Position numbers and translations under genes: made by a program
Notes under the pieces: generated by a model
The model's input: only the letters and a program-made list of their open reading frames with translations
Database searches by the model: none
Told to the model about the DNA's origin: nothing
Shown here: positions 10,541 to 20,136 of the stretch, piece after piece
Layout: every line of letters starts with the position of its first letter
Numbering within the stretch: the stretch's first letter is position 1
Assembly: GCA_017537265.1 (NCBI GenBank)
Contig: JAFYLE010000140.1
Span: forward strand, 1 to 33,911
Direction: 5' to 3'
Length of the DNA: 33,911 nt
Origin: Clostridia bacterium
GTDB lineage: Bacteria > Bacillota > Clostridia > Oscillospirales > SIG627

Positions 10541-10575
10541 AAAAAAGCCACCTTTGTCCGCAGAAAAAGGTGACT
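10541..10575 (-). terminator. Terminator of the interrupted tRNA-Arg gene
   Basis: A 10 bp stem (10546-10555 with 10566-10575, one G-U-type mismatch) is followed on the minus strand by six T. It lies 8 bases downstream of the CCA end of the tRNA 3' half, where the terminator of the original tRNA gene would be. Confidence 0.8.
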
Positions 10576-10582
10576 TTCTTCG

Positions 10583-10626
10583 TGGCACCCCCTGCGGGAA
10601 TCGAACCCACAACTAACCCTTAGGAG
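10583..10626 (-). pseudogene. 3' half of an interrupted tRNA-Arg(CCT)
   Basis: Read on the minus strand, this gives the anticodon loop CTCCTAA, the 3' anticodon strand GGGTT, a short variable loop, a T-arm with stem GTGGG/CCCGC and loop TTCGATT, the 3' acceptor strand AGGGGGT, discriminator G and an encoded CCA. The 5' side of the molecule is missing here: upstream bases do not pair with GGGTT or AGGGGGT. The missing part is at 12920-12961, where GCCCCCT and AACCC complete the acceptor and anticodon stems. Confidence 0.9.
10616..10626. repeat. Left copy of the 11 bp crossover repeat (attachment core)
   Basis: ACCCTTAGGAG occurs here and again in the same orientation at 12920-12930. It covers the whole anticodon loop and four bases of the adjoining stem strand of the interrupted tRNA-Arg. 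Confidence 0.85.
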
Positions 10627-10756
10627 ATACCCAGGGAAACGGCGCTCGCATCCCCTCTAATACCTAAAAATCCCCTGCTGTCAGGGAATTTTTAAGGTTA
10701 AAGTGTTATCTTATATTACGCCGTTATTGCTGATTTTAAGTCGTTTTGTCCTAACT

Positions 10757-10777
10757 GATTAGCAGACAATTAGCAAG
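10757..10777 (+). repeat. Left ATTAGCA pair (possible integrase arm sites)
   Basis: ATTAGCA occurs at 10758-10764 and 10769-10775, start to start 11 bp. The pair and its flanks closely match the pair at 12534-12551 near the other end, in the same orientation. No gene lies at 10627-10906; besides these repeats the stretch has a weak hairpin around 10666-10697. Confidence 0.6.
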
Positions 10778-10906
10778 ACCCTCAAAATTAGGGAAACGGT
10801 TATATTCCCACAAGATGCCTTTGTTTAATCGCTTGTATCTCGGTCTGTTACTGAGTTTTATTTATTATAACTTATTTCGCTAAATTGGAATTTATCAAAA
10901 GGTGTA

Positions 10907-11566
10907 TTACACCGTGACAGTTTCCCGCTTTCTCAATAACCAATACAAGCCAAAAAACATCATTGCACTACCGAGGTTCATCGCTCCCATACCGGCGAAC
11001 ACAATACCTGCGATAAGCGTCAACGGAAGCGTGTTGACAAGGCATGCCCATTTCGGTAAGCAGGTCTTGTCTTTAAGTACGAGTATGAACAGTGGAATTG
11101 CGACAAGCATTACACCGATGTTACACATCCCACTAGTGACCGCTGTTTCAAAGAAGAAGGTCAGCATGATATCGTGTGCTTCTTTGGTGGCACTCGATTT
11201 CACGAAATACCACAGCATAGAAGTGCAAGTGAAATGCATCACCGCTCCCGATACACATGTCAGCACCGTACCAATGGCGGTAACGGTTGCTGTCTTTTTT
11301 GCAACAGGTTTTAAAAATAGATAGATCTGATAATATCCTACAAGTGCCATCATCATGGCGACTGTTCCGGCAATGCCGGAGATCGTAAACTGGAGCGGAT
11401 TAACCCCCTCAAGCATTTGTACCGTTTTGTCGTAATCGAATAAGCCCATAACATCGAGTGGTCCATTCGGCACAAAATACAACAGCAGATCACCACCCAA
11501 CCAACAGAGAAGATGACCAAATGCTGCTACAAGTAAAAATTTTATATTTATTGCATTTGTTTTCAT
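10907..11566 (-). CDS. Multi-pass membrane protein of unknown function, element cargo
   Basis: From ATG 11566, behind GAGGTA, this is a 219-residue protein; the frame extends to 11647 but lacks a ribosome binding site there. About six hydrophobic segments span residues 8-28, 55-80, 90-115, 135-160, 170-190 and 195-212. It ends in a short basic tail (LLRKRETVTV). I recognise no catalytic motif. It resembles small DUF-type integral membrane proteins of Firmicutes (DUF4386/DUF6796-like), but this is not certain. It is AT-rich compared with the flanking chromosomal genes. It lies 52 bases downstream of the hydrolase gene on the same strand, so the two are probably co-transcribed. It could transport or modify a substrate with the hydrolase, but this is only inference from position. 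Confidence 0.75.
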   Translation of the reverse strand: MKTNAINIKFLLVAAFGHLLCWLGGDLLLYFVPNGPLDVMGLFDYDKTVQMLEGVNPLQFTISGIAGTVAMMMALVGYYQIYLFLKPVAKKTATVTAIGTVLTCVSGAVMHFTCTSMLWYFVKSSATKEAHDIMLTFFFETAVTSGMCNIGVMLVAIPLFILVLKDKTCLPKWACLVNTLPLTLIAGIVFAGMGAMNLGSAMMFFGLYWLLRKRETVTV

Positions 11567-11618
11567 AATATGTACCTCATATTTTGATAATCTAATGTAA
11601 ATTGTCAAATTGAATTTT

Positions 11619-12365
11619 TTATCCAATTGTACTGTGGATTTTTTCACAACAATCGGCGGTATGTTTCATAAGAAATTCGCCGTGTCCAAACCCATCCATG
11701 ATTTCCTCGGCAAATTTGGGCAGATACTTTTTGAGAATATTGTGTGATTTTATCGCATACAGTTCTTTACTTCCACACCACAAATGCACCATCGTTTGAT
11801 TCTGTGCAATCTCTGGGCGTGTGCGATAGGTGTAGTTTTCAAGGAAGTTGCGATCAACGGTTTCGTCACTAGCGTTCATGTACATTCCTACTGTTAAGCC
11901 GTCTGCCATTTCTTCCAGTGTTGTTCCCATAAGGGTCATCATAATATGAATGAAACCGGGAAACTTGCCCGTATTCTTATACTTCTTGAACATCCACGCC
12001 GTTACTTTTGCTGACAACTTACCTTGATGTGCCACATAGCACCCATCCATAATTACAGTTCCCAAATCAACCTTGTTACGGGTGAGCAGTTCTGTCAACA
12101 TCAAGCCGCCTTGCGATGCACCATAAGCGCCATGTATTTTTCCATCATAGTGCTGATAAATATATTCTTCAACCTGTCGTGCCTGATCAGCAAAGGATGT
12201 GAAATCACCGCTGCCATCATAAAATCCATCCTGGGCAGGTATAATTAAGCGATAATACTCCTCTAACGGTTTGAGCATATCATACTCGCTGTGCCAATCC
12301 TGCATCATACCATGCAACAGCAAAACAGGCGGCTTGTCTTTGTTTCCAAATTCATTAAACAGCAT
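11619..12365 (-). CDS. Alpha/beta hydrolase, element cargo
   Basis: This 248-residue protein (start at 12365) has a typical alpha/beta hydrolase layout: PPVLLLHGMMQDW after the first strands (oxyanion-hole HG), the nucleophile elbow GASQGG near residue 90, and a late histidine in GFGHGEFLMKH. Possible starts are GTG 12374, ATG 12371 and ATG 12365; the anti-SD match AGGTGAT lies just before the last. It has no signal peptide, so it is cytoplasmic. The substrate is unknown; esterase, lipase-like or acyl hydrolase activities are all possible. It is AT-rich compared with neighbours outside the element. Together with the downstream membrane-protein gene it forms the only protein-coding cargo. Confidence 0.85.
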   Translation of the reverse strand: MLFNEFGNKDKPPVLLLHGMMQDWHSEYDMLKPLEEYYRLIIPAQDGFYDGSGDFTSFADQARQVEEYIYQHYDGKIHGAYGASQGGLMLTELLTRNKVDLGTVIMDGCYVAHQGKLSAKVTAWMFKKYKNTGKFPGFIHIMMTLMGTTLEEMADGLTVGMYMNASDETVDRNFLENYTYRTRPEIAQNQTMVHLWCGSKELYAIKSHNILKKYLPKFAEEIMDGFGHGEFLMKHTADCCEKIHSTIG

Positions 12366-12506
12366 ATCCATCACCTATCATTGTTTTATTGTAAATAATT
12401 ATAGCACATAAATATGAAAAATTCTACAAATTAAAGCAAAAAGAAAACGACAAGGTTTATTAATTGGCAAAACAAAAAGTCTATGGATGGAACATACGCC
12501 TGTGCG

Positions 12507-12583
12507 AATTAGCAGGATTTTGTTAAAAATCCGATTAGCAGGAGATTAGCAAAACGGGGATTTTCTGCTAATTGCAATTAGCA
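12507..12583 (+). repeat. Right ATTAGCA cluster (possible integrase arm sites)
   Basis: ATTAGCA occurs at 12508-12514, 12534-12540, 12545-12551 and 12577-12583, and inverted at 12566-12572. The 12534/12545 pair has the same 11 bp spacing and similar flanks as the left pair at 10758/10769. The stretch 12375-12592 holds no gene. Confidence 0.6.
12566..12583. promoter_or_regulatory. 18 bp perfect palindrome, putative protein-binding site
   Basis: TGCTAATTGCAATTAGCA is a perfect inverted repeat built from two ATTAGCA units. It could be an operator for a dimeric regulator or an inverted pair of arm sites. The element carries no recognisable regulator gene, so the binder would be encoded elsewhere. 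Confidence 0.5.
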
Positions 12584-12592
12584 AGGAATAGT

Positions 12593-12712
12593 GCCTCCCT
12601 CTGACGAGGGAGGTGGATTTTGCGTAGCAAAAGACAGAGGGAGAGAAAAAGCGAAAAACAAAAATCTCTCCCTCAGTCAGCTTCGCTGACAGCTCCCTCA
12701 TCAGAGGGAGCC
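12593..12712. repeat. 120 bp palindromic intergenic repeat (MITE-like)
   Basis: The outer ends are imperfect inverted repeats, GCCTCCCTCTGACGAGGGAG at the left and the complement of GGCTCCCTCTGATGAGGGAG at the right; each end can itself form a hairpin. Inside are two small perfect hairpins: TTTTGC/GCAAAA at 12618-12632 with loop GTA, and GTCAGC/GCTGAC at 12676-12690 with loop TTC. I recognise this sequence type as a dispersed repeat of gut Clostridia genomes. It has no coding capacity. Confidence 0.75.
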
Positions 12713-12752
12713 AAGACAGCCAAAGCCCTTTATTTATGCGGGTTTTAATCAG

Positions 12753-12780
12753 AAAAAACCGCCTCTTTCGAGACGGTTTT
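12753..12780 (-). terminator. Terminator of the element-borne tRNA-Arg
   Basis: An 11 bp stem (12755-12765 with 12770-12780, one mismatch, loop of 4) is followed on the minus strand by six T. It begins directly after the CCA of the tRNA at 12781-12857. Confidence 0.85.
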
Positions 12781-12857
12781 TGGCGTGCTTGCCCGGATTC
12801 GAACCGGGGGCGTTCCGCTTAGGAGGCGGACCCTCTATCCTGCTGAGGTACAAGCGC
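12781..12857 (-). tRNA. tRNA-Arg(CCT), complete, inside the element
   Basis: The 77-base cloverleaf is complete with encoded CCA: acceptor GCGCTTG/CAAGCAC, D stem CCTC/GAGG, anticodon stem TCCGC/GCGGA with loop CTCCTAA (anticodon CCT, reads AGG), five-base variable loop, T-arm stem CCCGG/CCGGG with loop TTCGAAT, discriminator G. Acceptor pair 2-71 is a C-A mismatch, unusual in a working tRNA. The sequence differs widely from the interrupted tRNA-Arg(CCT) around it, so it is not a duplicate of it. No convincing promoter lies in the 62 bases upstream, so it is probably transcribed from the promoter at 12973-13001. Confidence 0.92.
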
Positions 12858-12919
12858 ATATACAATACAATTCAAACAGATTACCATTTGCCTTTTTGCA
12901 AAGGCGAGCGTTAAAACAT

Positions 12920-12930
12920 ACCCTTAGGAG
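12920..12930. repeat. Right copy of the 11 bp crossover repeat (attachment core)
   Basis: ACCCTTAGGAG is identical to 10616-10626 and in the same orientation. The next base towards the element departs from the tRNA sequence, marking the edge of homology. Confidence 0.85.
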
Positions 12931-12961
12931 GGGTTTGTTATATCCATTGAACTAAGGGGGC
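12920..12961 (-). pseudogene. 5' half of the interrupted tRNA-Arg(CCT)
   Basis: On the minus strand it reads acceptor strand GCCCCCT, TA, a D-arm with stem GTT/AAC, then anticodon-stem strand AACCC, loop CTCCTAA and GGGT. After that the sequence leaves the tRNA fold: no T-arm or 3' acceptor strand follows. The acceptor strand pairs with AGGGGGT of the 3' half at 10583-10626 (first pair G-U) and AACCC pairs with its GGGTT. Confidence 0.9.
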
Positions 12962-12972
12962 GTGCGCGTTTC

Positions 12973-13001
12973 ATTATAACGGAAAAGACGATGAAAATCA
13001 A
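12973..13001 (-). promoter_or_regulatory. Native tRNA-Arg promoter, now upstream of the element-borne tRNA
   Basis: On the minus strand TTGATT (12996-13001) and consensus TATAAT (12973-12978) are exactly 17 bp apart, with transcription starting a few bases before the tRNA 5' half. Reading on, the transcript contains the orphan 5' half, about 60 bases of spacer, the intact tRNA-Arg and then its terminator at 12753-12780. Confidence 0.8.
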
Positions 13002-19230: not shown

Positions 19231-19259
19231 AAAAAGCACCGCATTGCGGTGCTTTTTTT
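19231..19259. terminator. Bidirectional terminator between yigZ and yihY
   Basis: AAAAAGCACCGC-type stem (19231-19243 with 19247-19259, loop ATT) carries an A run before and a T run after, so it serves both converging transcripts. Confidence 0.9.
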
Positions 19260-19284
19260 GTTTTCTGACGTAAGGCGTCCTTTT

Positions 19285-20136
19285 TTATTCTTCGATCTTC
19301 ATCTGGGCTTCTTCTTCCTTTTTGAAGTAGAGCATGGTGTTCAACTCCGCGCCGAGGAAGAGCAGCCACATGCAGAAGTACAGCCACAGCATCAAGAGGA
19401 TCAACGCAGTCAGCGAGCCGTAGATATAAGAGTAATTTGCAAAGCCGGAAATGTAGAGCGAGAAGCCCGTGGAGAACAGGATCCATCCTGCGGCCGTAAA
19501 GAGAGCACCGGGGAATTGTACTTTGAGTGAGGAAAGCGGTTTTTGCGCGGACGAGCAGTACAGAAGCAGTGCAAACAGCGTGATGAGCAGGGCAGAGACG
19601 AGGTATTTTGCAAGCGTCATAACCACGCTTGCACCAAGCAGATTTGGGAAGGCCTGCGAGAACAGTGACCATAGGGTGTTGCCGAAAACCAGAACGACCA
19701 GGGCAAAAAAGACCGTCAAAAGCAGTGCGACCGTGTAGAGCAGGGAACGCAGACGTTCTTTGTAGTAGATTGCCTTCGGCACGCGAAAGATGTGCCTCAA
19801 CCCCTGCGTTACGGAGTGCACCCCGCGCGAGGCGGCCCAGAGCAGCACGAGCGAGGAGACGGAGATGATGGAGAACGTTTGCTTGGAAAACAGATCGCGC
19901 ACCACACCGGTCAGGAAGGTCTGCATGCTTTCGGGCAGGTGTTCCTCCAGCGTTGCCACAAGTTCGGCTTCTTCGATGGGCACGATGAACTGCAACAGCG
20001 TGACCAAGAGCATCAAAAGCGGAACGAAGGAGATGATGAGGAAGAAAGAGGCTTCGGCGGAATACAGTCCGAGGTGCTCTTTTTGGATGCGCACCCACAG
20101 CGCGCGCAGGTATTCAAAAATGCGTTTGTGCTTCAT
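19285..20136 (-). CDS. YihY/BrkB family inner-membrane protein
   Basis: This 283-residue protein has about six membrane helices and the family's conserved features: an N-terminal GLYSAEASFFLIISFVPLLMLLV, SSLVLLWAASRGVHSVTQGLRHIF, and a C-terminal YSYIYGSLTALILLMLWLYFCMWLLFLGAELNTM. YihY/BrkB proteins were once called ribonuclease BN by mistake; their function is not settled. The start ATG lies 9 bases after AAGGAG. A consensus promoter is 28 bases upstream. The C-terminal tail is short and acidic. Confidence 0.93.
   Translation of the reverse strand: MKHKRIFEYLRALWVRIQKEHLGLYSAEASFFLIISFVPLLMLLVTLLQFIVPIEEAELVATLEEHLPESMQTFLTGVVRDLFSKQTFSIISVSSLVLLWAASRGVHSVTQGLRHIFRVPKAIYYKERLRSLLYTVALLLTVFFALVVLVFGNTLWSLFSQAFPNLLGASVVMTLAKYLVSALLITLFALLLYCSSAQKPLSSLKVQFPGALFTAAGWILFSTGFSLYISGFANYSYIYGSLTALILLMLWLYFCMWLLFLGAELNTMLYFKKEEEAQMKIEE

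Follow-up and report, generated by a model that had tools for sequence, protein, structure and literature searches.

A tRNA-Arg(CCT) gene of a Clostridia bacterium split by an integrase-less mini-element that carries a probable substitute

In the window analysed here (the whole 33,911-nt stretch of DNA from a Clostridia bacterium), a tRNA-Arg(CCT) gene is interrupted at its anticodon loop by about 2.3 kb of DNA, which raises the question of what becomes of such a gene when neither end of the insertion puts it back together. The parts of the resident gene and its flanks are as follows.

12920..12961, minus strand: resident type-A tRNA-Arg(CCT), 5' half; the cut follows the anticodon loop (sequence, ARAGORN, stem-pair count)
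10583..10626, minus strand: right core and, displaced from its 5' half, the 3' half of the same tRNA-Arg(CCT) gene (sequence, ARAGORN, stem-pair count)
12920..12930, minus strand: left attachment core, 11-bp repeat (repeat search, comparison with relatives)
12973..13001, minus strand: host tRNA promoter TTGATT-17-TATAAT (promoter scan, aligned promoters)
10541..10580, minus strand: hairpin beyond the displaced 3' half, probably the terminator that the resident gene once had (inverted repeat)

A preliminary description of this DNA had placed both halves on the minus strand and proposed that they fit into one tRNA, and this proved correct at those positions: when rejoined by script over the 11-bp repeat they form a 75-nt molecule, scored by ARAGORN as tRNA-Arg(CCT), with 7/7 acceptor pairs and 5/5 anticodon-stem pairs. 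The direct repeats it had reported over the anticodon loop (ACCCTTAGGAG) were also found, their copies starting at 10616 and 12920 with a spacing of 2304 bp, and an 8-bp portion of this 11-bp core, CTCCTAAG, is common to all relatives. Uninterrupted type-A genes, which it had expected in relatives, are present, at 95% identity over 75 nt, in G006 (a genome of the same family) and in G052, and because uninterrupted genes of this type occur there, the two halves can be said to belong together. Neither junction of the insert rebuilds the target, as had been claimed, and according to ARAGORN the sole complete tRNA in the window is one that lies within the insert.

12781..12857, minus strand: complete replacement tRNA-Arg(CCT), type B (ARAGORN; Rfam RF00005, 57.9 bits)
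12858..12919, minus strand: left-end spacer of the element, 62 nt (comparison across loci, promoter scan)
12754..12781, minus strand: intrinsic terminator directly 3' of the replacement tRNA (fold -16.8 kcal/mol, z -4.4)

This internal tRNA is encoded on the same strand as the broken 5' half and starts 62 nt beyond it. The resident gene is thus broken, as the preliminary description had it, but the complete second tRNA-Arg(CCT) at 12781-12857 had been overlooked, and the plain loss of the tRNA that was implied does not agree with its presence. The resident type A begins GCCCCCTTAGTTCAA and the replacement type B begins GCGCTTGTACCTCAGC. A promoter scan of the minus strand of the 62-nt spacer found no sigma-70-like site, and the nearest promoter-like site upstream of the replacement tRNA on this strand is the host's TTGATT-17-TATAAT at 13001-12973. 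Since a full tRNA-Arg(CCT) stands behind the host promoter, its sequence and position suggest that the resident gene has been replaced rather than simply lost, and that the substitute may be functionally needed. The host draft genome (80% complete, 16 tRNA hits) yielded no further tRNA-Arg(CCT), and it also has tRNA-Arg genes with TCT, ACG and CCG anticodons; because tRNA-Arg(TCT) is present and might read the AGG codon, need for the replacement is not proven. The replacement tRNAs of four other loci (L170, L212, L227 and L299) are mutually identical over 77 nt, and the window's copy differs from them by 1 nt, which creates a C2-A71 mismatch in the acceptor stem; judging from the sequence, its activity may be reduced by this mismatch, perhaps a sign of early decay.

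The arrangement is not confined to the window. A strict DNA pattern, consisting of a broken half followed by a second tRNA-Arg(CCT), was searched for with the reversed pattern as a control; it occurs in 23 of 394 genomes of the order (control 0) and in at least 119 further stretches of a species-genome collection. Nearly all of the 80 matches listed are labelled Clostridia or other Firmicutes, isolates and complete genomes included, and [Clostridium] asparagiforme DSM 15981 and Clostridiales bacterium CCNA10 are examples with the same architecture; cultured carriers also include Caproicibacter fermentans and Blautia caecimuris DSM 29492. One match labelled Alteromonadaceae (L230) fits the DNA pattern, yet looks like an ordinary tandem tRNA cluster and was set aside. 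Among the 119 matches listed, only 1 of 144 upstream copies is intact, versus 87 of the 101 terminal copies for which there was enough sequence, and some of the terminal copies scored as broken precede more copies lying outside the strict pattern (e.g., L217). In several genomes (G037, G038, G041, G169 and G273) many contigs break off inside the substitute tRNA or immediately past it, which suggests that the presence of the element varies in the sampled populations.

These counts bear on the simplest reading of the locus, namely that the gene was disrupted, the host lost its tRNA-Arg(CCT) and the internal tRNA came along as chance cargo. The real split of the gene, a possible reading of AGG by tRNA-Arg(TCT) through wobble and the substitute's stem mismatch would all fit; against this, the internal tRNA shares the anticodon of the broken one, its placement recurs in many unrelated loci, terminal copies stay intact in the proportions given above for the matches listed while upstream copies do not, and element-type tRNAs survive elsewhere as the sole detected copy. 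We therefore regard coincidental cargo as improbable. An assembly or binning artefact of the metagenome contig is less probable still: the window's genome is known from a draft in 145 contigs that is 80% complete, and many contigs of relatives break off within such elements, but the two junctions are internal to a 33.9-kb contig, well away from its ends, beside serC and DUF218 genes that adjoin the locus in G002 as well, and the same architecture is found in the named isolates and complete genomes and in G029 on a single contig.

Replacement by an integrating element is further supported by how the ends of such elements meet their targets. One left end is found behind 13-14 host acceptor types and another behind 9; the window's own left-end spacer type stands behind 5 different host 5' acceptor sequences at six loci, and one right end stands before 9 different host 3' acceptors. 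Because the spacer families are constant and the host 5' half varies, the junction can be placed at the CTCCTAAG core. As ARAGORN was too lenient a test of mates on mismatched halves, stem pairs were counted instead, and mates within one locus pair 12/12 at distances of 33 kb in G342 (5' half GTCCATA, mate 3' half TATGGAC), 6.3 kb in G029 and 1.97 kb in L269, as do the mate halves of G037, which lie on two contigs. Site-specific recombination, previously no more than proposed, is borne out by these identical ends adjoining many different tRNA-Arg halves and by the tyrosine integrases that related elements encode.

The remainder of the insert has the features of a small mobile element.

12508..12588, minus strand: left arm-type repeats TGCTAAT, several copies (repeat search, comparison)
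11619..12374, minus strand: cargo gene 1, alpha/beta-hydrolase fold protein (Pfam Abhydrolase_1, E 1e-5)
10907..11572, minus strand: cargo gene 2, DUF6796 protein (Pfam PF20599, E 1e-18)
10627..10790, minus strand: element right end, with arm repeats at 10757-10779 (homologous right ends elsewhere)

The G+C content is 42-45% in the three 1-kb intervals holding the insert versus 54-58% in the flanking kilobases. Two non-phage genes make up its entire gene content, which is not that of a temperate phage; Pfam found no integrase gene among them, PADLOC assigned no defence family to the cargo, and the host draft (80% complete) yielded no helper integrase. Homologous ends, variable cargo and the lack of a recombinase gene are instead those of an integrase-less mobilizable mini-element. 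A search with the window's right end gave matches in 10 of the 394 genomes of the order, in six of which (G187, G128, G078, G392, G157 and G142) the core and then a tRNA-Arg 3' half come directly after the match, and the right ends of L212, L269, G392, G128 and the window are common to all while their cargo differs. Both L212 and L269 are mini-elements with right ends and arms homologous to the window's: the former (1.53 kb) carries a trypsin-like peptidase and is probably part of a stack, since its two outer halves are not mates, and the latter (1.97 kb) has its own type-A tRNA between the pairing halves mentioned above.

Group I introns are known in some bacterial tRNA-Arg(CCU) genes, and an insertion in the anticodon loop has the position of known tRNA introns, so that splicing of the halves at the RNA level by a self-splicing intron has to be weighed. 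No Rfam intron model matches the window at the gathering threshold, however, and a terminator directly after the internal tRNA, two genes, a duplicated core and integrase-like arms at the ends are not what such an intron would bring, making it a most unlikely explanation. Several other observations concern these elements. At 12592-12713 the window has an inverted CTCCCTC...GAGGGAG repeat resembling dispersed repeats of gut Firmicutes, and the trypsin-like peptidase of L212 (6618-7469) is weakly similar to protease models associated with defence (LmuA, RT-protease). In L300 (G157:C53, 521-2192) the end of a Tn916-like ICE (Xis, integrase) is inserted amid the cargo of a tRNA-Arg mini-element, at a site resembling AAATT..AATTT, and a similar motif is found at 10880-10905 of the window. 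The integrase of G157, located by the homologous right end, was considered as a helper; it belongs to this Tn916-like ICE (Xis PF09035), and together with the ~100-140 nt behind it recurs in other genomes that have no tRNA-Arg, arms or core there, and a helper role was rejected.

A source of integrase is more readily seen in the larger relatives. Among the matches listed, 52 loci were testable, having at least 1.5 kb of sequence downstream, and in 20 of these a tyrosine recombinase (integrase) gene lies at most 2 kb from the last tRNA, always in convergent orientation; G037 additionally has an HTH_17 (Xis-like) gene. The motif TGCTAAT, which in the arm-type repeats presumably represents integrase arm sites, occurs 118-148 nt before the core and 3' half in 36 of the 394 genomes (control 0), an arrangement common to the integrase-bearing G029, G233, G235, G342 and G037 and to the mini-elements, the window's included. 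Larger relatives encode ParA and ParB (G055, L229), and G055 also RepA_N and DUF3801; this gene content suggests integrative conjugative elements. A scan of viral contigs with the G037 integrase gave no match. In longer spacers (e.g., G055) a promoter of the element's own was suspected from TATAAT, and the promoter scan gave it no clear support.

Taken as a whole, we consider it very probable that the window's mini-element cut the tRNA-Arg(CCT) gene, brought a substitute that took over both promoter and function, and was moved in trans. In the proposed sequence of events, a tyrosine recombinase would integrate the element into the anticodon loop of tRNA-Arg(CCT) by a crossover within CTCCTAAG, which leaves the host gene cut in two with neither end rebuilding the tRNA, and in compensation the element carries the full tRNA-Arg(CCT) at its left end. 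The host promoter, left with a dead 5' half, probably reads through the 62 nt into the element's tRNA, the transcript ending at that tRNA's own terminator; by this read-through the element would take over the promoter and function of the resident gene. As it has no integrase, it was probably mobilised by that of ICE-like relatives sharing its core and TGCTAAT arm motif. The core is also present in the substitute, so that this can in turn become the target of a later element, and repeated rounds would leave stacked dead 5' halves; an element that is lost could leave its substitute behind as the resident gene. Relatives show both patterns, though the order of events is our reconstruction.

Stacks reach up to 6 copies among the matches listed and appear, from their sequences, to record repeated rounds of integration. 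The longest are L148 (G233, 19258-19723), with five dead 5' halves before one full tRNA, and L237, with six copies; in the G233 stack several units of 93 bp are near-identical. Takeover is suggested by the sister species G001 and G002, in which the window's promoter also stands upstream of their single B-type tRNA-Arg(CCT), itself upstream of serC. In G002 this element-type tRNA is the only tRNA-Arg(CCT) detected, 2 nt different from the element-borne copy of L242, and in G040, from another family, a tRNA identical to that of L242 is preceded by a degenerate 5' half and by a spacer that can still be recognised, the rest of the element not being recognisable in the stretch read. These two patterns look like stages of domestication, in which the tRNA presumably passed from element to host rather than from G002-like residents to elements. 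Within one genus, the gene of G027 has no preceding half and the same gene in G050 follows a 92-bp unit (dead 5' half and spacer), consistent with a scar of integration followed by imprecise excision via the inner core.

G027 also has a conventional element with the same arm motif (G027:C23:517-696 with G027:C2:469-545), in which the tRNA is intact and a near-identical 3' half is displaced; it may be an evolutionary link between elements that restore the tRNA and those that replace it. Such a restoring relative, together with spacers elsewhere that resemble decayed 3' halves (the CGGCAG..GTTCGA.. series), would suit the idea that the window holds a conventional tRNA island whose restored copy has decayed, the 62-nt spacer having once been a 3' half and the full tRNA having been acquired later. 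The window's spacer contains no tRNA 3' half, however, and the same non-tRNA spacer occurs in six loci, so we judge this history very unlikely here; it would in any case concern the origin of the system and not its present working.

If replacement by mobile elements is accepted, a gene of the translation machinery can be taken over by mobile DNA repeatedly, the stacked halves being its fossil record, and the origin of divergent tRNA-Arg(CCT) genes becomes testable. It also cautions that a tRNA gene present only once in such a genome may belong to an element. A literature search found no description of this Clostridial system, which is no proof of absence; on balance we lean towards regarding it as undescribed, with ICE-like elements and integrase-less, cargo-swapping satellites repeatedly overwriting host tRNA-Arg(CCT), leaving one dead 5' half per round and replacing the gene type across species, in what would be non-phage tRNA-dependent integration with domestication of element tRNAs by the host. 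What appears new is the combination of such mini-elements and their ICE-like relatives with this target, serial stacking and takeover.

Cis-mobilizable or integrase-less satellites keep both attachment ends, have no integrase and are presumably moved in trans; unlike these generally, the Clostridial mini-elements carry a substitute for the gene that they destroy. Conventional tRNA-targeting islands and ICEs (Islander, PMC4383910) likewise combine a tyrosine recombinase, a tRNA target and direct repeats at the ends, and rebuild the tRNA with an element-borne part; the Clostridial target is not rebuilt and a second gene replaces it. Prophage Lj965 of Lactobacillus johnsonii, as cited in PMC10865867, is reported to leave the tRNA without rebuilding it and to encode a cognate tRNA; this is a single prophage case.

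The closest parallel is tRNA-dependent lysogeny, a principle known from actinobacteriophages (Guerrero-Bustamante & Hatfull 2024, PMC10865867), with cases at tRNA-Lys, tRNA-Ile2 and tRNA-Leu; one phage group can hold both restoring and replacing members, and tandem integration into the vector's own tRNA gene is mentioned there as speculation only. The logic is the same: a short common core lies inside the host tRNA, whose halves are separated, the element encodes a complete tRNA of the target's isotype, and a restoring relative with the same arm motif exists here too (G027). The window's element works like tRNA-dependent lysogeny but, having neither phage genes nor an integrase, is not a strict member of it. 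So far demonstrated for phages of Actinobacteria, the principle is thereby extended to non-phage elements of Clostridia, namely mini-elements and ICE-like elements that target tRNA-Arg(CCT), that place the replacement behind the host promoter at ~50-90 nt from the core and that show many stacked rounds.
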